A stretch of 53,763 nt of DNA from the NCBI GenBank assembly GCA_937934115.1, contig CALHAH010000039.1, positions 1 to 53,763 of the forward strand. The letters are read 5' to 3'. The notes beneath the pieces are model-generated. The model did not search any database. It had not been told where the DNA came from and saw nothing but the letters and a program-made list of their open reading frames with translations. This stretch comes from an uncultured Thermoanaerobaculum sp. (lineage in GTDB: Bacteria; Acidobacteriota; Thermoanaerobaculia; Thermoanaerobaculales; Thermoanaerobaculaceae). The translations under genes were made by a program, and so were the position numbers. Positions within the stretch are counted from its first letter, which is position 1, and every line of letters begins with the position of its first letter. Shown here piece after piece: positions 28,654 to 46,369 of the stretch.

Positions 28654-29885
28654 TCACCCCCGCATGGCGGCCACGGGGCTTACGCGGGAGGCTTGGCGGG
28701 CCGGCCAGAGGCCTGAGAAAAAGCCCACGGCCACCGCAAAAGCAAAGGCCAAGCCCGAAGGCGATGGGGGCAACCCCGCCTCGAAGGCACCGCTTGCTTG
28801 CTGCGTCACCAGCAAACCCAAAGCCACACCCTCCACCCCTCCCAAAAGCGAAAGCGACGTGGACTCGGCGAGCACCTGGAGGAGGATGGCCTGGTCTGAA
28901 GCCCCAATGGCCTTGCGCAAGCCAATTTCGTAAAGCCTTTCCGCCAAGGAAATGCGCAACACCGAGTAGATGCCCACGCCACCCACCAACAGCGAAATGC
29001 CCGCAATAGCTGCCAAAACAACGGTCCAGTTGCGGAGGATCACGCGTATTTCCTTTTCCGCCCGCAGCATTTCATCGGCCACATTTTCCACTTCGAATTC
29101 CTCAATGCCCTTGTGGGTGCGGCGAATGATCCTTTCGATTTCCGCTTTTACCGCCGCCAAGTTCTCCGTGTTATGGGTACGCACGGAAATCAAGTGTATG
29201 TTGTGGCCGCCGGAAAGGTGGGCACGGAACGCGGAAAGCGGCAGCAAAATCCCCTCCATTTCCCGCCGGGTCCAGCCGGAATTGGCAAAACGGTTTCCCA
29301 GGCGCTCTTCCACTCCAATCACTTGCAACGGCACATCACCCACCGTAACCATTTTGCCCACGGGGTTTTCATCGCCAAATAAAGCTGCGGCCAGCTCCGC
29401 CTTCAACACCGCCACCCGCCGTCCCGCTTCTTCGTCCCCGTCGTGGAAAAATCTGCCCTTCTGCCCCTTGCGCTCGTGCACATACACGTAGGAGGGGCTT
29501 CCCCGTACACCCGCACGCGCCTGGATACGCTTTCCGCGTGCACCACGCCATCGGTAAGCCGCACCGCCGCCACCGCCGCCAGGCTTTTACCTCCCTGCGC
29601 CAAAGCTTGGGAGTCCCTCAAGGCCAAACCCCGGCTTGGAAAGGCTTTCTTTTGTGCTAAAAGCGATTGGGGAGGCTTGCTGCTCACAAACATGACGCCA
29701 TCGAAGCCGAGACCCTTCACCCCGGACCACACCGCTTCCCGCACCCCAGCCCTGAGGGTCATGAACACCACCATGGCCGCGGTACCCAAGGTGACACCGG
29801 TTACGGTAAGCCCCGAGCGCAGCTTATGTGCCCCAATTTCCACCAACGCTGAGCGCACGCTTTCGGAAAGGGAAAGCCGCATCAT
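28654..29885 (-). pseudogene. MacB-like ABC transporter permease, frameshifted
   Basis: Start ATG 29885 overlaps the upstream permease (ATGA). The first frame holds the N-terminal membrane helix (KLRSGLTVTGVTLGTAAMVVFM) and part of the periplasmic domain. It then derails at about 29490, after VRVYGEAP, into a nonsense tail. The second frame resumes with YVYVHERKGQKGRFF and continues with the rest of the periplasmic domain and three C-terminal helices (VVLAAIAGISLLVGGVGIYSV, FtsX-type), ending near 28654. One missing T in GCCCCTCC (29490s) explains the break. The intact product would have been about 410 residues, like its neighbour. Confidence 0.8.
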
Positions 29886-31808: not shown

Positions 31809-32979
31809 CTACGACTCCCTCTTCTTAGGCCGGGTGGGATCCTCCAAGGCCACCTCCTCCCCCACTTCGACACCTGAAAGCACCTGCAAAACGCGAAAGG
31901 GAAGGAATGCCGGTTGCCACCACCCGTTCCTCAAACCACGCCTTCCACGTGTCCGGGCCAGGCGTAGCCTTGGGTTTCGGCATTTTGGCTGCGGTGGTTT
32001 GTTTGCGAACGTAGACGATGTCCTTGTCGTCCTTGCGGAACACCGCTTCCACTGGCACCGTCAACACCCCAAAAGCTTTCTCACCGAAAATCTTCGCGAA
32101 AGCGGTCATACCGGTGTGCAGCTCTTTCCCTTGCGCATCCAGCACCACTTCCACGTCGTACACCTTCCCATCGCGGTCCAAACGGGCCGCCGGTGCCATG
32201 CGGGTCACCTTGCCGGTGAACTTGGCTTTGGGGAAGGCGTCCAGCGTCACTTCCACCGCAGCACCCACCGCCACCTTGCCAATGTCCACTTCGAAAACCC
32301 CAGCTTTCACGATCATGCGCGAAAGATCGGCCACCGTTGCAATGACGGTGCCGGCGTTAAAGGATCCGGCACCGGTAACCGCCTCCCCCAACGCCACAGG
32401 GCGACGGATCACCACACCATCCATAGGGGAAAGGATGTGCAGCACCTGCTGGGGGTTGGTGGCCAGGGGAACGCCGGAGGACTCCGCGATTCTTGCCTTT
32501 TCCCGTGCCGCCTCCAGCGCCTCTTTTGCTTGCATGTAACGGGTTTCCGCAGCACGGTGTACCTCGAGGGCAATCAAGCCTGCCTTGAGGAGCTGGTCTT
32601 TTGCCAAAAAGTCCTTTTCGGCATCGGCAAAGTCAATTTCGTGCTGAATCACAGCACGACGCATTGCCGCTAAATTTTGCGCTTGGTTCACCTCAGGCTC
32701 AATGGCAGCAAGGAGATCCCCTTTGCGCACGCTGTCGCCCTCGCACACGGGCAAAGCCACGACTTTGCCGGAAAGAGCCGATTTCACGTCCACCTTGACC
32801 TCAGGTTCCACCGTGCCCACCTCCACCACCTCCACCTGGACATCGGCCAGCTCCACCTTGGCCACCGGCACCGGGGGTTCGGCCGTGCCGCGGTTGTCAG
32901 CCTTGCGTGCAGCCACCACCGCGGCAAAAACCCCTACCCCCAAAATACAAACCACAATCCACGTGGCGTTCCTACCCAT
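31809..32979 (-). pseudogene. MacA-like HlyD/RND adaptor, C-terminal frameshift
   Basis: Reading from ATG 32979: an N-terminal membrane anchor (TWIVVCILGVGVFAAVVAA), a barrel-sandwich half with KSALSGKVVALPVCEGDSVRKGD, a coiled-coil hairpin at about 100-170, a second lipoyl half (SPMDGVVIRRPVALGEAV), and a beta-barrel. After VVATGIPS near 31897 the frame goes off into a Gly-rich tail. The adjacent frame supplies the expected FRVLQVLSGVEVGEEVAL ending and stops at TAG 31809-31811, 11 bp before the ATPase start. One extra C in TCCCTTT explains it. The protein may be partly functional because only about 30 terminal residues change. Confidence 0.8.
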
Positions 32980-33161: not shown

Positions 33162-34532
33162 ATGCACCGGACCTTGCCTTGCACCGCCCTTTTGCTTGTA
33201 GTTATGGCCATAAATGCCGTCGCGCAGGAGAGACCAAAGGCTGGTGACGACGCTTTAGGCGCCTATCCTTACGAAAAGTTCGAACGCCCGCAAGCGTGCG
33301 CTTCGTGCCACGTAGACATTGCCCGCCAGCACGAACAATCCATGATGGCCCAGGCTTTTACCCATCACTGGGACGAAATTGAATACTTTGAGCTGGCCCT
33401 TCCCCACGCAGAAAAAGAACCCAAAGTCGCTGGCGTGAAAGCGGGCTGCAACGGTTGCCACGCACCCTTTTCCTTCCTGGCGGGAGACATCCCCCCCAAA
33501 CGGCCGCAGGAGAACACCAGGGCTAACGAGGGTGTGTCCTGTGATTTATGCCACACCATAACGGGCTACGCCGGCGACACACCGTTTAACTACAACTACG
33601 TCGTTTCTCCAGGCAAAGTAAAGTACGGGCCGCGCCCCGGCCTGGTGAGCCCCCACCACGAAACCAAAGAATCAGCCTTTTTGCGCTCCGCGGAATTTTG
33701 CGGTACGTGCCACAACGAAAAGAGCCCCTTTGACGTGTGGGTGAAGGCCACACATTTGGAGTGGAAGGAAAGCCCCTATGGTAAAGCTGGCATCGTTTGC
33801 CAGGACTGCCATATGCCCAAAGCCCCTGGTCGCTCAGCGCGTATGGGCGAGGAGCTGCCGGATGTGCGGCAACACCTGTTCCACGGCGCCCATGACCCTG
33901 GCAAGTTGGCCGGCGTCGTTGAAGTTCGCATCCACCCCGAGGTGCGCGAAGCGGAACCTGGAGAAACCGTGAAACTTACGGCTACGGTGGTCAACGCCAA
34001 AGCGGGGCATAAGGTTCCTTCTGGTTCAGCAGAAGAGCGCATGCTGTGGCTGCACGTGGTAGCCACCGACAGTAAGGGCAACGTGTACCACCTACCCGTG
34101 GATCGCAAGGGGTTTACCGGCGAGGAGTACACGATCGCCTCCGCCACCGCCCTCGCCTACCAGGATATCGGGGACATCAAGGGGATCCCCAACTTCCCAG
34201 GGCTTTTGCGGGATGGTAAGTACCCCCACCTGGCTCCGGGGGATCGCATCTTCCGCATGCCTTACTTTGATCCCAAGGGAAGACAAACCATTGCTCAGTG
34301 GAATACCGCTTCTTTAGGTACTGACTACCGCCTGGCGCCTCTGGCAGCAATAAACGAGACATTCACCTTTAAGCTTCCCCCAAACACCCCGCCAGGACCC
34401 GTCAAGGTTAAAGCATCCGTTTACTACTCGCGCTTGGTTTCCTCCGTGGCTGAGTTCCTCAAGGTACCGCCAGAGGAAAGTGAAGAAATCCTCATTAACA
34501 GCCACGAAACACAAATTATGGTCGTGCCGTAG
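33162..34532 (+). CDS. Secreted pentaheme c-type cytochrome
   Basis: 456 residues with a signal peptide (MHRTLPCTALLLVVMAINAVAQ). Five CXXCH heme-binding motifs lie in the first half at residues 46-50, 96-100, 127-131, 180-184 and 213-217, and several free His could be axial ligands. The spacing recalls cytochrome c554-type multiheme proteins. The second half (about 240-456) has no hemes and looks all-beta (VEVRIHPEVREAEPGETVKLTATVVNAKAGHKVPSG), a probable partner or sugar-like binding domain. It should carry electrons in the periplasm. The next gene, 22 bp away, is an outer-membrane barrel with one heme motif. Confidence 0.88.
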   Translation: MHRTLPCTALLLVVMAINAVAQERPKAGDDALGAYPYEKFERPQACASCHVDIARQHEQSMMAQAFTHHWDEIEYFELALPHAEKEPKVAGVKAGCNGCHAPFSFLAGDIPPKRPQENTRANEGVSCDLCHTITGYAGDTPFNYNYVVSPGKVKYGPRPGLVSPHHETKESAFLRSAEFCGTCHNEKSPFDVWVKATHLEWKESPYGKAGIVCQDCHMPKAPGRSARMGEELPDVRQHLFHGAHDPGKLAGVVEVRIHPEVREAEPGETVKLTATVVNAKAGHKVPSGSAEERMLWLHVVATDSKGNVYHLPVDRKGFTGEEYTIASATALAYQDIGDIKGIPNFPGLLRDGKYPHLAPGDRIFRMPYFDPKGRQTIAQWNTASLGTDYRLAPLAAINETFTFKLPPNTPPGPVKVKASVYYSRLVSSVAEFLKVPPEESEEILINSHETQIMVVP

Positions 34533-34554
34533 CGCAAGACCAAAGGAGGTCGCT

Positions 34555-35727
34555 GTGGTTGGCCCCACCCTTTGCGTTACCTTTGCAGCTGGTGTCTTGG
34601 CTCTCGCCGTCGCGGCCCCCAGCCACGCCATCCCCGCCTTCGCCCGCAAGTACCAGTTCTCCTGCTCCACCTGCCATGCCCCTTTTCCTCGCCTCAAGCC
34701 TTACGGCGAGGAGTTTGCCGCTCGCGGCTTTCGTTTGGAGGACCCCAGCCAAGAACCGAGCCGTGCCACGTACGACGTGGGGGACCCGTGGCTCCAGCTT
34801 CCCCGCGAGTTTCCCCTATCCCTGCGTCTGGACGGCTACGCCGCGCTGCTGGACTCCCGCGGCGAACCCAAAACCACCGATGTGCAGTGGCCATGGGCCG
34901 TGAAGCTGCTTTCCGGCGGGCAAATCTCCAAAAACATCTCCTACTACGCCTACGGCATTTTGGAAAAAGGCGAAACCATTAAGCTGGAGGATACCTGGGT
35001 TCAATGCAACTCGATTTTTGGCGCCCCGGTAGACGTAATGGTGGGGCAATTTCAGGTTTCCGACCCGCTTTTTAAGCGAGAACTTCGGCTCTCGCGCAAC
35101 GATTACGCCATCTTTAAGCTCAAGGTGGGGCACTCTCCCACCAACCTCACCTACGACCGCGGCTTGGTGCTCACCTGGCACGCACCAGCGGAATTTGAGG
35201 TGGTAGGGCAAATCGTCAACGGCAACGGCATTGCGGCAGCGGAGGAGAACTTCGACGACAATCGCTTTAAGTCGGCTAGCCTACGCCTCGTCCGGAGTTT
35301 TGGGCCCGTGCGCTTGGGGGTTTTCGGCTACCGCGGCCAGTCTGGACCCAACCAGGGGCCCAAGGACAGGATCACCTACCTGGGGCCCGACCTGGTGGCC
35401 GACCTGGGGGAGCGTTGGCAGCTTTCCCTTTGCTACCTCCGGCGCAGCGATGGTGACCCTTTTTTGCTGGGCCGGCATGGAGCTCCACTGGTAACCAAAG
35501 GGGGATTCCTTGAGCTCCACTTCTTCCCCCAAGGTCAGGATGGCCGTTGGGCGCTTACCTTTCTTGCCAACCGCGTCACCTCGGACGTACCAAATACCGA
35601 GGAGAAAAACACCTCCATCACTTTTAACTACCTAATGGCTCGAAACTTTCGGCTGCAAATTGAGCTGTTGCGGGATGAAGTGCGCGACCAAAACCAGCTG
35701 GCGGTGGGTTTGGTGACGGCGTTTTAA
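34555..35727 (+). CDS. Outer-membrane beta-barrel with an N-terminal c-heme motif
   Basis: 390 residues from GTG 34555, behind AAAGGAGGT. A signal peptide ends at about SHA25. CSTCH at 37-41 then lies in the pattern AFARKYQFSCSTCHAPFPRLKPYGEEFAARGF; similar openings occur in uncharacterised outer-membrane proteins of several phyla. The rest is a run of amphipathic strands with a terminal Phe (LAVGLVTAF), the usual outer-membrane insertion signal. A heme near the mouth of a barrel encoded beside a pentaheme cytochrome suggests an electron route across the outer membrane. That role is inferred, not shown. Confidence 0.8.
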   Translation: MVGPTLCVTFAAGVLALAVAAPSHAIPAFARKYQFSCSTCHAPFPRLKPYGEEFAARGFRLEDPSQEPSRATYDVGDPWLQLPREFPLSLRLDGYAALLDSRGEPKTTDVQWPWAVKLLSGGQISKNISYYAYGILEKGETIKLEDTWVQCNSIFGAPVDVMVGQFQVSDPLFKRELRLSRNDYAIFKLKVGHSPTNLTYDRGLVLTWHAPAEFEVVGQIVNGNGIAAAEENFDDNRFKSASLRLVRSFGPVRLGVFGYRGQSGPNQGPKDRITYLGPDLVADLGERWQLSLCYLRRSDGDPFLLGRHGAPLVTKGGFLELHFFPQGQDGRWALTFLANRVTSDVPNTEEKNTSITFNYLMARNFRLQIELLRDEVRDQNQLAVGLVTAF

Positions 35728-35770: not shown

Positions 35771-36060
35771 TCAGTTGCCGCCGCGTTCCGCAAACCTCTC
35801 CAGCCGGGCTTGGCGCAAAGCTGCCAACGCCCGGCCGAGTTTTTGCTGCGGCACAAAAAGGTAAAGCCCTTGCACTGGAAAACCCCAAGCTGGGGCCGTA
35901 AGCTGGGCGGCACCGGAAAGAGCTTTCGCCAAAAGCCCAAGCCAAGCGCGCGTCGTTGTTCGTAACCTCCAGTACGGGCTTGTTGGCTTCAAAGCAAACT
36001 TGGATAAGGGCAGGCTTCGGGCATGGCGGCCATTGCCTGTTTTCAAGCATGAGGCAGCAG
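35771..36060 (-). pseudogene. Frameshifted paralogue of the 37605 gene
   Basis: On the minus strand one frame gives FEANKPVLEVTNNDARLA. After a slip near 35940 the next frame gives LLAKALSGAAQLTAPAW followed by GLYLFVPQQKLGRALAALRQ and a short end. Both parts align with the second half of the intact gene at 37605-38012 (NAPFANSELLAAASSALAEV...). The last 28 codons are identical at DNA level (84 bp), while the parts before differ strongly. The N-terminal half is unrecognisable. It is a dead or dying duplicate. Confidence 0.7.
35790..35873. repeat. 84-bp direct repeat, copy 1
   Basis: Identical, base for base, to 37627-37710 in the same orientation. It codes (minus strand) for the C-terminal end of the 37605-family protein. 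The two copies bracket the second peptide cassette (36282-37618). The identity ends abruptly on both sides, which suggests gene conversion or a recombination junction. Confidence 0.9.
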
Positions 36061-36281: not shown

Positions 36282-36515
36282 ATGAACGCCTTCGCCAAAC
36301 GCTTCATGCTAATCGTGGTTCTCGCAGCCACTCTTTCCCTGGCCGTGGTTGGGTCGGCGCAGGCCATTTGGTGCGAGATCCTCAGGCTTCCCGACATGTC
36401 CTGCGTCTTCTGCCATCGTTGGACTAAGATAGGAGCTGAAACCTGCGACCTGTGGGAGGGGTGGTGCTCGGACGGGTGGTACGACAATGGCTGGTACTGT
36501 TGGGGCCAACTATGA
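36282..36515 (+). CDS. Small Cys-rich secreted peptide, cassette 2
   Basis: A 77-residue precursor, with AAGGAGG before ATG. A strong signal peptide (residues 1-28, ending GSAQA) leaves a 49-residue mature peptide that starts with Ile and has six Cys (31, 41, 44, 55, 62, 73) and many Trp. Cys41-His45 read CVFCH, a c-heme motif, inside an FCHRW core that resembles FCHW of the broken peptide at 27033. Options are disulfide-rich peptide, small monoheme cytochrome, or a modified natural product; the sequence alone does not decide. Its stop overlaps the start of the partner gene (ATGA). A TTGACA at 36215-36220 may be its -35, but no clear -10 is visible. Confidence 0.75.
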   Translation: MNAFAKRFMLIVVLAATLSLAVVGSAQAIWCEILRLPDMSCVFCHRWTKIGAETCDLWEGWCSDGWYDNGWYCWGQL

Positions 36516-37618
36516 AACATGGGTGCCGCGCGTGTGTTGTGCTGCTCGCCATAATCAGCGGCGTGGCGTGGGGACGTGGCTTCCTCGCTGAACGCAGGTT
36601 TCCCCCCGAAACCCTTTTTGCCTCTTCGGGTCACGGTACCTTGCTCACCGTGCAAGGAAATGTTCTGGAGCTTTGGAGTGAGGCCGGTAAACTGATACGT
36701 TCATGCGAAATTACGGATCCCCGCTTGCAGGGTTCACGCAACAGCGTGGCCTTGCACGGGGATTTAGCGCTTTTGAGTTTCCTGGAGCCCGAAGCTGGAA
36801 AAGAAGAAAACCGCAAGCTTGTTTTGGTCAACCTCCAGGACTGTCGCGTCGTTTCTTCTTTTTCACTCCCGGGCGTGGTGTTGGGCGTAAGGGGCAGTCC
36901 TTTGGGGTGGCTGACGGTGAGCCGCGGCGTGGGCAGCCCATCGTATGAATTTTCTTTAGTGGATAACGACGGCCAGCTTCTGGCTTCTTACGTTTTCCCT
37001 AAGGAACTGGCCGCGAGTCTCGGTTCGCGCGGTTTACCCTTAGGCCCTGCCCACCTCGTCACCCTCCGAGATCACGTCTTCATGGTGCCCCAAACAACCT
37101 ATGAGCTTTGGGCCCCGGCGCAAAAAAGCCGCCCCGCACGCAAGCTACCCGTGCCTGAATGTCTTTACCTCGAAGGCCAGTGGCTTTCCGGCGAGGCATC
37201 AGAACGAGAACTCCGCCGGCGCATGGCCTACGCCAGCGAAGAAACCCGCCGCATCATTGAGGAATTTTTACAAAAGGGGGGATCCCACCGAGGGTTTATG
37301 GCAGCGGTCCGCGGTATTTCCCCTTATCGTCACCGCTTGGCGGTTCTCCTTCGTGACCCCACAGTGGCCAGCAGCTGCCGCCTGGATATTTGGGATTTGG
37401 TCTTAGAGGCTCCCCTGCTGATCACCACCTTTGGCGAGAATCCATGCCCCGATCGCTTTTTTGCGTTGGTTAGCGACGGCCTTTGGGTTTTCCGGGAAGA
37501 TCGCTTGGTGAAAGTTCCCCTGGCCATTGCAGAGGAGCCTCTAGCCTGCCCCTGCGAGCTTTTGCGAACGTTGCGGGGCCAAGGGAACACCAGCTGGGAA
37601 AAACCTACGAAGCCGTAA
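36512..37618 (+). CDS. Secreted partner protein of peptide cassette 2
   Basis: 368 residues from ATG 36512, overlapping the peptide's stop and so translationally coupled to it. It has a signal-like N-terminus (CRACVVLLAIISGVAWG). The mature part has short beta repeats of propeller type (GTLLTVQGNVLELWSEAGKL, RKLVLVNLQDCRVVSSFSLP, DHVFMVPQTTYELWAP, GLWVFREDRLVKVPL). Several Cys (for example CEIT, DCRV, PECL, SCRL, NPCP) might form disulfides with the peptide. I do not recognise a named family. It has the same place and size class as the partner at 27282. It ends overlapping the convergent 37605 gene by 14 bp. Confidence 0.65.
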   Translation: MKHGCRACVVLLAIISGVAWGRGFLAERRFPPETLFASSGHGTLLTVQGNVLELWSEAGKLIRSCEITDPRLQGSRNSVALHGDLALLSFLEPEAGKEENRKLVLVNLQDCRVVSSFSLPGVVLGVRGSPLGWLTVSRGVGSPSYEFSLVDNDGQLLASYVFPKELAASLGSRGLPLGPAHLVTLRDHVFMVPQTTYELWAPAQKSRPARKLPVPECLYLEGQWLSGEASERELRRRMAYASEETRRIIEEFLQKGGSHRGFMAAVRGISPYRHRLAVLLRDPTVASSCRLDIWDLVLEAPLLITTFGENPCPDRFFALVSDGLWVFREDRLVKVPLAIAEEPLACPCELLRTLRGQGNTSWEKPTKP

Positions 37619-38012
37619 CGTCCCGAGCAAACCTCTCCAGCCGGGCTTGGCGCAAAGCTGCCAACGCCCGGCCGAGTTTTTGCTGCGGCACAAAAAGGTA
37701 AAGCCCTTGCGTTCGAGACCAAGCCAAAACCGGAACCTCCACCTCTGCCAAAGCTGAACTAGCGGCGGCCAAAAGCTCGGAGTTGGCAAAGGGGGCATTT
37801 ACCGCCACCCGCCTCCAGCCGTCAGCCGCCACGGTGGCTTTTGGCGGAAGCTGGCCTACTGCTGACTGAGGGACGAGGAAGGCCCGTTCCTCCAGCGGGT
37901 AGCACCCCTGGGAGAGGAGGGCTGCCGGAAGCGTGTCGCCTTCGGTGAGGAAAACCAGCGAGTAGCTCTCCGGCGACACGAAAAGAACGTGCCCGCTGGC
38001 TGATGCAAGCAT
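37605..38012 (-). CDS. Conserved-looking protein of unknown function
   Basis: About 135 residues from ATG 38012, 20 bp after the M23 peptidase stop, behind TTGGAG at a longish spacing. A longer frame (to 38087) would overlap the peptidase. The sequence GHVLFVSPESYSLVFLTEGD and the helical end GRALAALRQARLERFARD do not fit a family I know. A frameshifted paralogue lies at 35771-36060 and shares its last 84 bp exactly. The gene probably shares a transcript with the M23 peptidase. Confidence 0.55.
   Translation of the reverse strand: MLASASGHVLFVSPESYSLVFLTEGDTLPAALLSQGCYPLEERAFLVPQSAVGQLPPKATVAADGWRRVAVNAPFANSELLAAASSALAEVEVPVLAWSRTQGLYLFVPQQKLGRALAALRQARLERFARDVTAS
37627..37710. repeat. 84-bp direct repeat, copy 2
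   Basis: Identical to 35790-35873 and in the same orientation. This copy is the 3' end of the intact 37605 gene. Confidence 0.9.
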
Positions 38013-38032
38013 TGCGAAAACTCCAAAAAAAG

Positions 38033-38911
38033 TCAGTATGCGTCGAGGATGTAATGCAGGGGGTTTTGCTTTTCCCCGTCTTTCCACACCTCGTAGTGCA
38101 GATGCGGACCCGTAGTGCGCCCGCTCATGCCCACCCGCCCGATGACCTCACCGCGCTTCACCCGTTGCCCTTCCCTCACCAACACCCGGTCCAGGTGGGC
38201 GTAAATGGTGACAAAGCCGTAACCGTGGTTCAATTTCACCACTCGGCCATACCCAGCTTCCCGATCTGCAAACACCACCAAGCCGTCCGCCGGCGCCTTG
38301 ACCGGCGTACCAAAAGCGGCAGCAATATCCAGGCCACCGTGGAAAGCGGCTTGGCGGGTAATGGGGTCAATGCGCGGACCAAAACCGTCGGTGATGACAC
38401 CCACCACCGGTGCAATGGACGGGGTATGGGACAAGAGCAGTTGCTGCTCAGAAAGGCGCTGTTCCACCGCACCCAGTTGCCTCTCAAGGCGTTCCTCCCG
38501 CTGCAAGAGGTGTTCCGGGCCGCCGGTGAGCCGATCCAGCGGCCCACCAGTGCCTACGGACGTTTTTGCTGGCAACGCGGGAGCCACCAATGCATCCGCC
38601 ACCCCTGCAGCGATGGCCAGTTGCTTGGTTCGCTGTTCAAACTGCTCTAAGCGAGCGTGAACCTCGCCCAAGGCCTCCTGAAGCCGTTGGTTGGTCCGGC
38701 GAAGTTCTTTGTTTTCCTTTTCCAGGGATCGGTACAGAGCCCGTTGGCGCACGAAATTGCCGGAACCCAAGAGCGCCACCAAGGACAAAATCACCGCAAT
38801 GACGCCCAAACCGGCGGTGATCTTCAAAAGCGTTGGCGAGAGGTGGAATTTATAGACGCGCCCAGCAGCGTGGGGGATGATGACAATGGTGCTGTGGCGC
38901 TTGTGGTTCAC
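38033..38911 (-). CDS. M23 family murein endopeptidase with coiled coil
   Basis: 292 residues from GTG 38911, with GGAGGAGG upstream. A membrane anchor at about 35-55 (LGVIAVILSLVALLGSG) is followed by a coiled coil at about 60-150 (YRSLEKENKELRRTNQRLQEAL) and a LytM/M23 domain at about 170-290. The zinc ligands are in FHGGLDIAAA and HLHYEV, all present. It should cut peptide cross-links in peptidoglycan or act as an activator of amidases. A very good promoter lies upstream. Confidence 0.93.
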   Translation of the reverse strand: MNHKRHSTIVIIPHAAGRVYKFHLSPTLLKITAGLGVIAVILSLVALLGSGNFVRQRALYRSLEKENKELRRTNQRLQEALGEVHARLEQFEQRTKQLAIAAGVADALVAPALPAKTSVGTGGPLDRLTGGPEHLLQREERLERQLGAVEQRLSEQQLLLSHTPSIAPVVGVITDGFGPRIDPITRQAAFHGGLDIAAAFGTPVKAPADGLVVFADREAGYGRVVKLNHGYGFVTIYAHLDRVLVREGQRVKRGEVIGRVGMSGRTTGPHLHYEVWKDGEKQNPLHYILDAY

Positions 38912-43419: not shown

Positions 43420-43639
43420 CGCTGCAGCCGATTTCTGGGGTTTTCGTACCGCAAGCCTGGGTGCACGCATGACGACTGGCAAGGTTTTCCGGCGTCTTTC
43501 TTTAGCTTTCAAAAATTTGCAAAAGGTTTGGGGTTGTCCGCGTGATTTTGGAAAAAACCCGGTTGGGGCTTCAACGTCCTGGCGCACCCCGGCGGGCTCC
43601 ATCCGCAAGGCTATAGGCCAGGAGAAAGGAGGGGTTCTT

Positions 43640-46369
43640 ATGAGGCAACGTTTTAGGTTTTATGGCGCCTTCCTGGTGGCGTGGCTGGTGGCCATGGTGG
43701 GTGCGGCCCAGGGGCCTGTTTCGGGCACCCTCGAGGGTGTCGTGAAAGACCCGGAGAGGGGTGTGCTCCCGGGCACAATGGTGGCGGTTTCCTCGGCCGT
43801 ATTGGTACAGAAAACGGCGCGCACCACCACCGATCAACGGGGAACGTTCCGCTTCCCCTCACTGCCGCCGGGGTTGTACCAACTAGAAGCGGAGCTTCCG
43901 GGCTTTAAAAAGCTCCAAATGGAAAACGTCAAGGTGAGCCTGGGGCAAACCACCCGCCTGGAGCTCACCTTGGAGCTGGCGGCTACGGCAGAAGAAGTAA
44001 CGGTTGTGGCCGAAGCTCCCTTAGTCAACGTGGCCGCCAACGACGTTGCTGCCAGTTTCGACCTTTCCTTTGTGACGCGCCAACCCGTGACCCGCAACTA
44101 CTACGCCATCATTAAAGCTGCACCTGGCGTTAACTTAGACTACATGTCGTCATCGGGCAGCGCGGTTTTAGCCTACGGCGGCACTGAAGAGCGGCAAAAC
44201 GCCTTCCATTTGGATGGGGTGAACGTGGCGGACACGGGCGGTGGCCAACACTGGGTTTTGCCGGCTATCCAGTGGATGCAGGAAATCCAAATTTCGGGGC
44301 CTGGGGCACCGGCAGAGTTTGGCGGCTTTACCGGCGGTGTCATTAACGGCGTAACACGCTCGGGAGGAAACACATTCTCCGGAGACCTGGAGCTCATTTA
44401 CCAGCCCAAAGACTGGGTTTCCGACAACGACCCCACAACCAACAACGATGAGTTCAAGTTTCTGGAGGCTGCCCTTTCGCTGGGTGGTCCTATTCGCAAG
44501 GATTCCCTATGGTTTTTTGCTTCCTACGACTACTGGAAAGAAACGACCACACCTTACGGAGCTGTGGCCAACAGCGAACGCACCATCCCGCGGTTTTTAA
44601 GCAAGTTCACGTGGCAGCCTGCTGAAAATCAACGCTTCATGCTCATGGCGGAATACGACAAGGTAAACCACGAGCGCCGCGGCATAGACGCGTACACGCT
44701 CCCGGAAGCCTCCTCCCATCAAAAGGCACCGGAAGTGAGCTTTGCCTTCCATTGGGAAGGGGTGCTGTCGCCCAATTCCTTTGTAAACCTCAAGCTCACA
44801 GGCTACGATGGCCGCGACGACTATTTGCCCTATCACGGGTTTAACACGCCTGGTCACATAGACTACGGCAACACCGGCCTGGCCTGGGGCAACCAAGACA
44901 TTCGTCAACACAACCACCGCAACTTGGTGAACCTGGATGGCAGCTACACCGCCTACGTTCCCGGTTTGCTGGGCGCGGATGAAGCCCACACCTTCAAAGT
45001 AGGTTTCCATGGAGAGCGCGGCCGGTCTTCGGATGTGTGGCTGCGTAACGGCGGCTTCACCTACTACGACGACTCCTCCTACTGCGATTCCTGGGAAGCG
45101 TACCTGGCGGATCCTTCCTGCGGCGCTGATTTCATTGAACGGGGTTACGGTGAGTACAACTCCCGACCCAAGTTTTCCGGCGTAGCGCTGTTTGCTCAAG
45201 ATTCGCTGCGCTGGCGCAATTTGACCGTCAACGCCGGTTTGCGCTGGGGTCAGTACCAGGGGGGCTGGCAAAAAGGCCACGGGCGAAGTAAGGTTTACGA
45301 CGAATCGTACCTCGACCCGCGTATTGGTTTGGTTTGGGACCCCTTTGACGATGGGCGAACAGCTGTCAAGCTCCACTGGGGTCGTTACCACGAAAAGATC
45401 TTCGGCTACCTCTTTGACCGCGAGGCCTCGGGAAACGCTGTCATCCCTGACCAAGATTGCTACTACGATTCCCGCACTGGCGGTTACACCGACTGCGATG
45501 AGCCCACGGTGAAGCTGGCCACCATGGGAAACATCAAGCACCCCTACGCCGATGAAGCGGTGTTTTCCGTGGAGCGACAACTGGGAGCCAAAATGGCCGT
45601 GGGCGTTGATTACATCAACCGCAAGTTCCGCAAGATCGTGGCCATGGTGAACGTCAACGACGACTACGAACGCCTGGTGGCCCGAGGCAACCCACTCACT
45701 GGCGGTGATTTGGTGTTTTGGAACCTGCTCTCACCCCCGGTTTTTGTGTTGCAAACCGTCGATGGCGCGTATCGCGACTATGAGTCCGTGACCTTGCGAT
45801 GGGACAAACGTTACAGCGGGGGCTTTTGGGCGCGGGCATCGGTGGTTTGGACCGACCTCAAAGGAAACTCGATGAAAAACAACTCTTACGAGTACGAGTT
45901 TGAGGACCGCAACGGCTTTATTAACGCCGAAGGTCGCCTGGACCGTTACAGCAAGTGGGAGTACAAGCTTTCCGCATCCGTGGACGTACCGCTCAACCTC
46001 ACGCTCTCAGGGTACTTCTCCTACCTCTCCGGGTGGTACTGGACGCCTTACGTGCGCATCCGCGGTCTTGATTACAACGCCTCCACCGGCAATTACATTT
46101 GGCTCACCCCGCGCGGGTCGCAAAAGCTTCCCGACCGCAAGCTGTTCGACCTGCGTTTGGCGTGGAACACTGCTTTGGCCAATACCAAACTCACGCTGGC
46201 ACTGGACGCCTTCAACGTCACCAACGAGGACACGGTCTTGCGCGTGGCCGGCCGTTGGGGCGATTACCGTATTTCCAGCGGACGGTGGAGCAAATCCTCA
46301 AGCTTTGGTCGTCCCACGCGCATTGAGCGCCCGCGGGAGGTGCGCGCTAGTATTCGGCTGACGTTTTAA
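43640..46369 (+). CDS. Oar-like TonB-dependent outer-membrane receptor
   Basis: 909 residues from ATG 43640, behind AAAGGAGGGG. A signal peptide (FLVAWLVAMVGAAQG) is followed by a carboxypeptidase-like regulatory domain (about 25-110: VSGTLEGVVKDPERGVLPG, TDQRGTFRFPSLPPGLYQLEAELPGF), a plug domain (about 120-250), and a barrel ending in Phe (ASIRLTF). Such Oar-type receptors are expanded in Acidobacteriota and take up large peptides or glycans. The peptidases downstream point to peptides. A 220-bp untranslated region before it shows no clear promoter. Confidence 0.92.
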   Translation: MRQRFRFYGAFLVAWLVAMVGAAQGPVSGTLEGVVKDPERGVLPGTMVAVSSAVLVQKTARTTTDQRGTFRFPSLPPGLYQLEAELPGFKKLQMENVKVSLGQTTRLELTLELAATAEEVTVVAEAPLVNVAANDVAASFDLSFVTRQPVTRNYYAIIKAAPGVNLDYMSSSGSAVLAYGGTEERQNAFHLDGVNVADTGGGQHWVLPAIQWMQEIQISGPGAPAEFGGFTGGVINGVTRSGGNTFSGDLELIYQPKDWVSDNDPTTNNDEFKFLEAALSLGGPIRKDSLWFFASYDYWKETTTPYGAVANSERTIPRFLSKFTWQPAENQRFMLMAEYDKVNHERRGIDAYTLPEASSHQKAPEVSFAFHWEGVLSPNSFVNLKLTGYDGRDDYLPYHGFNTPGHIDYGNTGLAWGNQDIRQHNHRNLVNLDGSYTAYVPGLLGADEAHTFKVGFHGERGRSSDVWLRNGGFTYYDDSSYCDSWEAYLADPSCGADFIERGYGEYNSRPKFSGVALFAQDSLRWRNLTVNAGLRWGQYQGGWQKGHGRSKVYDESYLDPRIGLVWDPFDDGRTAVKLHWGRYHEKIFGYLFDREASGNAVIPDQDCYYDSRTGGYTDCDEPTVKLATMGNIKHPYADEAVFSVERQLGAKMAVGVDYINRKFRKIVAMVNVNDDYERLVARGNPLTGGDLVFWNLLSPPVFVLQTVDGAYRDYESVTLRWDKRYSGGFWARASVVWTDLKGNSMKNNSYEYEFEDRNGFINAEGRLDRYSKWEYKLSASVDVPLNLTLSGYFSYLSGWYWTPYVRIRGLDYNASTGNYIWLTPRGSQKLPDRKLFDLRLAWNTALANTKLTLALDAFNVTNEDTVLRVAGRWGDYRISSGRWSKSSSFGRPTRIERPREVRASIRLTF

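Follow-up and report, generated by a model that had tools for sequence, protein, structure and literature searches.

The window, that is, the whole stretch of 53,763 nt analysed here, encodes on its forward strand a c-type cytochrome with five heme motifs, followed by a predicted barrel protein that carries a heme motif of its own. Could two such proteins transfer electrons across the outer membrane and, if so, with which external partner and in which direction? The original prediction had located both open reading frames correctly, with five CXXCH motifs in the cytochrome (33162-34532) and one in the adjacent barrel. What remained was to place each protein in a family, to see how regularly their genes occur together and to weigh the functions that such a pair could have.

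The barrel and its relation to Cyc2

The barrel ORF, mechanically listed as 34480-35727 (+) with one CXXCH near its start, probably begins at the GTG codon in position 34555, because this start agrees with the comparison of relatives and is preceded, five bases upstream, by a Shine-Dalgarno-like GGAGG (34545-34549). The stop codon of the cytochrome gene ends 22 nt before this GTG, and the resulting protein of 390 aa (34555-35727, +) has an N-terminus that resembles a leader. A scan against Pfam and NCBIfam at an E-value of 0.1 assigned the barrel to no family, and a sequence search of solved structures returned no credible match. According to the text consulted of Keffer et al. 2021 (PMC8406198), Cyc2, as in Acidithiobacillus ferrooxidans and Mariprofundus ferrooxydans PV-1, has a leader, a single CXXCH preceded by AXPXFAR[Q/K][T/Y] and followed by PXL, a minimum length of 365 aa and a porin of 16 strands, modelled on OprO/OprP. 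Each of these features was recognised in the window barrel. Indeed, (i) the signature AXPXFAR[Q/K][T/Y]..CXXCH..PXL is matched exactly (AIPAFARKY-QFS-CSTCH-APF-PRL-K, 34627-34698, +; heme motif 34663-34677), as it is in 73 of the 93 barrel-family members listed, a relaxed form being found in 92 of them, (ii) the 390 aa counted from GTG 34555 include the heme site, and (iii) the AlphaFold2 model (mean pLDDT 87.4) contains 16 strands by DSSP count, spanning residues 89-389 (34819-35721), with a less confidently modelled heme segment (residues 21-60, pLDDT 57-76). The porin matches of this model range from Z 23 to Z 26 and include Omp32 (Z 25.6; 279 aligned, rmsd 2.9), OprP (Z 24.6; 291 aligned, rmsd 3.0) and OprO (Z 24.4; 294 aligned, rmsd 3.1). 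The folding of the C-terminal part into a closed barrel, which had been set beforehand as a test, was thus borne out by the model. Because it joins the Cyc2 signature to 16 predicted strands nearest to those of Omp32, OprP and OprO, the protein is, as read from sequence and model, a Cyc2-like fused monoheme cytochrome-porin, a designation that does not imply Cyc2 in the narrow sense, the comparison having been made with six plasmid-borne Cyc2-like proteins.

A barrel with its own N-terminal CXXCH had initially been taken as unlike known conduits; the idea that it is unprecedented was rejected, since Cyc2 is defined by this architecture and the published motif is present. The original prediction had described the barrel family as not new and its function as unassigned, and it overlooked the likeness to Cyc2, the signature of which is exact. 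The retention of the heme motif, also predicted, was confirmed in all 17 of the close relatives that a search with the whole protein had returned and in 80 out of 80 of the pattern-found loci listed, a set that is biased towards the motif.

The six comparators come from Caballeronia, Methylocystis, Paraburkholderia, Ideonella, Acidiphilium and Polymorphobacter. By hhalign, the family profile matched theirs with 98.2% in local mode over 137 columns and with 98.9% in global mode over 327 columns. Most of this match falls within the heme segment, which is also where Cyc2 relatives in general match, according to the text consulted of He et al. 2017 (PMC5566968). In a quick tree without bootstrap, computed from 61 rows (every second one of the 93 rows in the family alignment A3 and those without a pentaheme cytochrome, together about half of that alignment, plus seven wide and six Cyc2-like rows), three separate supported groups were obtained: the window family (SH-aLRT 98), a wider group of Acidobacteriota (97) and the Cyc2-like proteins (100). 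The wider group (L074-L080) shares the N-terminal motif, with a profile match over 362-374 columns, but its barrels are longer than those of the window family (450-499 aa, counted from 28 residues before the heme), and no related pentaheme cytochrome was found in the stretches examined around them.

The genes adjoining the six comparators encode other c-type cytochromes (in one case with a HiPIP) and not a pentaheme cytochrome; for one of these cytochromes, a match to PF00034 was obtained. These partners are presumably Cyc1-like, a name for which the figure legends of PMC10654088 were also considered. No mono- or diheme Cyc1-like cytochrome or HiPIP, as in a cyc2-cyc1 operon, adjoins the window barrel, whose neighbour is the pentaheme cytochrome. 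In one Gemmatimonadota member of the barrel family (L117:3827-4225), an upstream monoheme cytochrome (PF13442/PF00034) takes the place of the pentaheme cytochrome.

The cytochrome and its family

The cytochrome gene (33162-34532, +) encodes a protein of 456 aa with an N-terminal leader, the heme motifs CASCH (33297-33311), CNGCH (33447-33461), CDLCH (33540-33554), CGTCH (33699-33713) and CQDCH (33798-33812), and a heme-free, Ig-like beta domain predicted at residues ~249-456 (33906-34529) from the model and its structure matches. This domain contains an invariant histidine (His283), which is a candidate heme ligand. The predicted model (mean pLDDT 95.8) has its best structural match in 5ze8 (Z 28.6 over 340 residues, rmsd 3.1, 24% identity; Foldseek E-value 5.5e-20), with a structural score far above those of all other rows. 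According to its PDB title, 5ze8 is a penta-heme cytochrome, the c552 from Thermochromatium tepidum. This c552 is water-soluble, a point on which the figure legends of PMC10654088 also bear.

A profile HMM of the cytochrome matched the PHC/c552 structure with an E-value of 7.5e-21, and its alignment profile also matched structures of the MccSep selenoprotein (1e-5). The NCBIfam ExtKL model (NF040886) scored 52.3 bits, below its curated cut-off of 250 bits, so that the protein is not a member of the curated ExtKL family but does belong to the wider PHC family, in which, according to the text consulted of PMC11976967, ExtKL, Gsu2801, c552 and cable-bacteria proteins are grouped. Indeed, the five c-type hemes, the C-terminal Ig-like domain and the overall fold of PHC/c552 proteins were all recognised over the whole length of the window cytochrome. 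In sequence and predicted fold, it is a relative of Geobacter ExtKL, that is, a pentaheme cytochrome of the c552/ExtKL kind, and the combination of five hemes with a large heme-free beta domain, which had seemed unusual, is the known architecture of these proteins. It differs from c552 and the cable-bacteria PHCs in its neighbour, as the text consulted on these proteins mentions no adjoining fused-heme porin.

The first heme motif varies within the family. Among the full-length paired cytochromes of the loci listed, 29 out of 65 have CX3CH in this position (L044, L045, L105, L109 and others, about half of the paired relatives), 35 have five CXXCH motifs and one is cut. The switch between the two forms corresponds to two changes on a quick cytochrome tree without bootstrap (54 rows); alignment A4 excludes L062 (masked run) and L073 (cut by the contig end), and further rows that were duplicates or fragments were omitted. 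The window ORF has no internal stop, and hence no in-frame TGA for selenocysteine. Five distant homologues (G095:C24, G095:C29, G026:C96, G148:C149 and G131:C100) have one in-frame TGA each and, judging from this codon, could possibly be selenoproteins of the ExtKL/MccSep type in Acidobacteriota.

Pairing and distribution of the two genes

The gene pair is flanked by a divergent gene for an HlyD-type adaptor (31825-32979, -) upstream and by a gene for a protein with no Pfam match (36452-37618, +) downstream. Other features were noticed in the window: an ABC-transporter-permease-like gene (28654-29885, -) split between two frames that overlap (28654-29487 and 29403-29885), which is probably a frameshift, real or created by assembly; a perfect direct repeat of 84 bp, with one copy just downstream of the barrel gene (35790-35873) and the other (37627-37710) inside the ORF 37605-38087 (-), found nowhere else in the genome assembly; and a protein of 966 aa with CarboxypepD_reg and outer-membrane beta-barrel domains (43469-46369, +).

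In a sample of 297 Acidobacteriota genomes, 89 contained any match to the barrel and 18, including the window's own genome, contained a close one (E-value below 1e-79). In all 17 close relatives other than the window, a pentaheme gene immediately precedes the barrel gene on the same strand, at 103-149 nt from its heme codon, while the other neighbours differ between genera. Among 80 named barrel loci, taken from at least 535 relatives, a pentaheme gene lies directly upstream on the same strand within 101-395 nt in 71 (71 of the 78 assessable loci listed), lies 3.2 kb away in one, with a TonB-receptor-like gene in between, and is missing from six, the last two loci being at contig ends and not assessable. 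On the barrel tree, the loss of the pentaheme gene amounts to three changes. Conversely, 16 further loci (L058-L073), 15 of them assessable, contain the cytochrome gene with no adjoining barrel gene, so the cytochrome is not a dedicated partner. To the question of whether the two genes always adjoin, which the original prediction had raised, the answer is nearly always from the side of the barrel and often not from that of the cytochrome.

The solo occurrences, 15 for the cytochrome and 6 of 78 for the barrel, would suit an accidental co-transcription, in which the CXXCH of the barrel would be structural and no electrons would pass between the two products. The adjacency is nevertheless far beyond chance, being kept in 17/17 and 71/78 loci and across about a dozen phylum-level names while the other neighbours vary, and we consider an accident very improbable. 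The names under which the pair was found in the loci listed are Acidobacteriota, Aminicenantes, KSB1, Calditrichota, Krumholzibacteriota, Bacteroidota, Ignavibacteriota, Chlorobiota, Latescibacterota, Eisenbacteria, Zixiibacteriota and Neomarinimicrobiota; since nearly all carriers are metagenome bins, single names may be wrong. One record labelled Clostridiales (L134) bears this outer-membrane pair, and its label or bin is doubtful. At another locus (L053), the immediate upstream neighbour of the pair is a ResB/CcsA-like gene for cytochrome c assembly (L053:11696-14500, -).

No published account of the barrel-pentaheme gene pairing was found in the open-access PMC literature, a scope that leaves its absence in print unproven. 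Each protein belongs to a known family and, as far as the literature search shows, their conserved combination is apparently undescribed.

Proposed function and direction of electron transfer

According to the text consulted, the Geobacter proteins ExtI and ExtKL, encoded in the extHIJKL cluster (PMC6148476, PMC5877670), likewise combine a barrel with a periplasmic pentaheme cytochrome, related to that of the window, and involve no outer-surface multiheme cytochrome. The differences are that (i) the text consulted calls ExtI a porin and mentions no heme in it, whereas the window barrel bears a heme motif, (ii) ExtKL is a selenoprotein, and (iii) the ext cluster is much larger and also encodes a rhodanese, ExtM, ExtN and a cytochrome b, whereas the window module has two genes only. 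Among the scanned immediate neighbours of the barrel, there was no gene for a rhodanese-like lipoprotein. The conduits MtrAB, MtoAB and PioAB follow the same plan of a barrel with a periplasmic multiheme cytochrome, and consist of a 26-strand barrel that encloses a decaheme cytochrome. A conduit of this type was rejected for the window pair, in which the barrel has 16 predicted strands, its own heme would be the sole one inside, and the partner has five hemes.

The function that we propose, to which we give roughly an even chance, is that of a two-gene outer-membrane redox module in which the periplasmic pentaheme cytochrome would exchange electrons with a redox ion in the pore, most often outwards. 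This proposal starts from the observed adjacency, motifs, folds and family distribution, and extends them to a presumed localisation, docking, substrate and direction. By analogy with Cyc2, the short N-terminal monoheme segment would form a plug at the periplasmic mouth of the 16-strand pore; the pentaheme cytochrome, as a periplasmic electron carrier, would dock below the pore and swap electrons with the plug heme; a dissolved redox species, for example chelated iron, would enter the barrel and meet the conserved loop in the porin L3 position; and electrons would mostly exit the cell to reduce an acceptor outside, opposite to their direction in classical Cyc2. The outside partner would be dissolved and not solid, because the pore would hold a single heme, which at the periplasmic mouth can serve only dissolved ions that enter the pore, as is argued in the text consulted of PMC8406198. 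The pair would plausibly be a minimal electron route across the outer membrane. The narrower reading, of a reversed Cyc2 in which a monoheme cytochrome-porin fed by an ExtKL-type pentaheme cytochrome exports electrons, is advanced more tentatively, with the balance somewhat against it.

The conservation pattern of the barrel bears on what may enter the pore. In the family, hardly any variation is seen in the long loop that joins strand 5 to strand 6 (35056-35151), with its conserved QVSDPLFKRELRL, or in several charged strand residues, as would suit a constriction holding a particular ion. Mean conservation is also higher for inward-facing than for outward-facing strand residues when facing is assigned by hydrophobicity (0.658 versus 0.554, p 0.008), and the conserved inward-facing residues include Arg, Lys, Asp and Glu. 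This inward-facing conservation, together with a fold near those of the anion-selective Omp32 and OprP, would also suit a pore that selectively imports a metal chelate or a soluble oxyanion, which the pentaheme cytochrome would reduce in the periplasm, the plug heme having a gating or secondary role. ExtI and ExtKL with selenite are a proposed precedent, and the loss of ExtI lowers the reduction of selenite and tellurite (PMC5877670, text consulted); moreover, the solo cytochrome gene at L064 adjoins a gene for a heme-free Porin_5 protein, an arrangement reminiscent of ExtI-ExtKL. However, no part of the barrel is more conserved than the heme motif, which is never lost in the sets of relatives examined, which is more than a mere pore would need, and the inside-outside assignment comes from hydrophobicity alone, not from coordinates. 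An import pore is considered improbable.

To our knowledge, all Cyc2 proteins characterised so far are Fe(II) oxidases that take electrons inwards. In a classical Fe(II) oxidase, Fe2+ would enter the pore and reduce the plug heme, and the pentaheme cytochrome would pass the electron on to an oxidase, to nitrate respiration or to reverse electron flow. The exact Cyc2 motif, the length above 365 aa and the 16-strand OprO/OprP-like porin are consistent with this function, as are the strong COX1 match in the window's own genome, the COX1 found in 39 of the 49 searched carriers from other phyla (from the 80 named loci listed) and the Cyc2 homologues earlier reported in Ignavibacteriaceae (PMC6344600, text consulted). 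Against it, the window family is separated from the six Cyc2-like comparators (SH-aLRT 100 and 98), with their other c-type cytochromes as neighbours; the partner is of the ExtKL kind; and 12 of the 18 carriers in the phylum sample have no recognised oxygen reductase, neither heme-copper nor bd. We consider Fe(II) oxidation unlikely, at somewhat over a quarter, and electron export about one half.

Export of electrons by the module is suggested by the behaviour of related systems. With extHIJKL as the sole conduit cluster, Geobacter reduced Fe(III) oxide at up to 50% and Mn(IV) oxide at up to 75% of the wild-type level (PMC6148476, text consulted). The cytochrome c552 is a low-potential cytochrome according to the title of its paper (reference list in PMC11976967), and the Cyc2 of PV-1 has a potential of +208 mV (PMC8406198, text consulted), so that, by analogy with those proteins, the downhill sense would be outward. 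COX1 is absent from 13 of the 18 carriers of the phylum sample, compared with 53 of the 297 genomes overall (Fisher p 2e-7, ignoring relatedness), the oxidase-poor carriers being clustered in a few families. Of these carriers, 12/18 have no recognised oxygen reductase, but 39/49 of those elsewhere have one, so that aerobic electron uptake would be possible in most lineages, and the idea that the pair generally marks anaerobes was ruled out, as it applies to some lineages only. The module evidently needs no oxygen reductase, yet is not confined to anaerobes. Matches to PF03264 (NapC/NrfH) were found in 18/18 carriers, but they are mostly the pentaheme cytochrome itself and are uninformative on a quinol oxidase.

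Cyc2 serves as a marker of iron oxidation in genomes and metagenomes, and the authors of PMC8406198, in the text consulted, ask what the many Cyc2 homologues in other bacteria do. With a Cyc2 motif, a fixed partner of the metal-reduction type and carriers that have no oxygen reductase, the window family makes the question of whether Cyc2 always means iron oxidation testable with a two-gene construct. The pair also provides a named, countable electron-transfer module for Aminicenantia, Ignavibacteria, Calditrichota, Krumholzibacteriota, KSB1 and their relatives. If a reversed Cyc2 is indeed involved, it would be among the smallest outer-membrane electron outlets, present in about a dozen groups of phylum level, among them bacteria that have no oxygen reductase, and the Cyc2 motif would mislabel its carriers as iron oxidisers.
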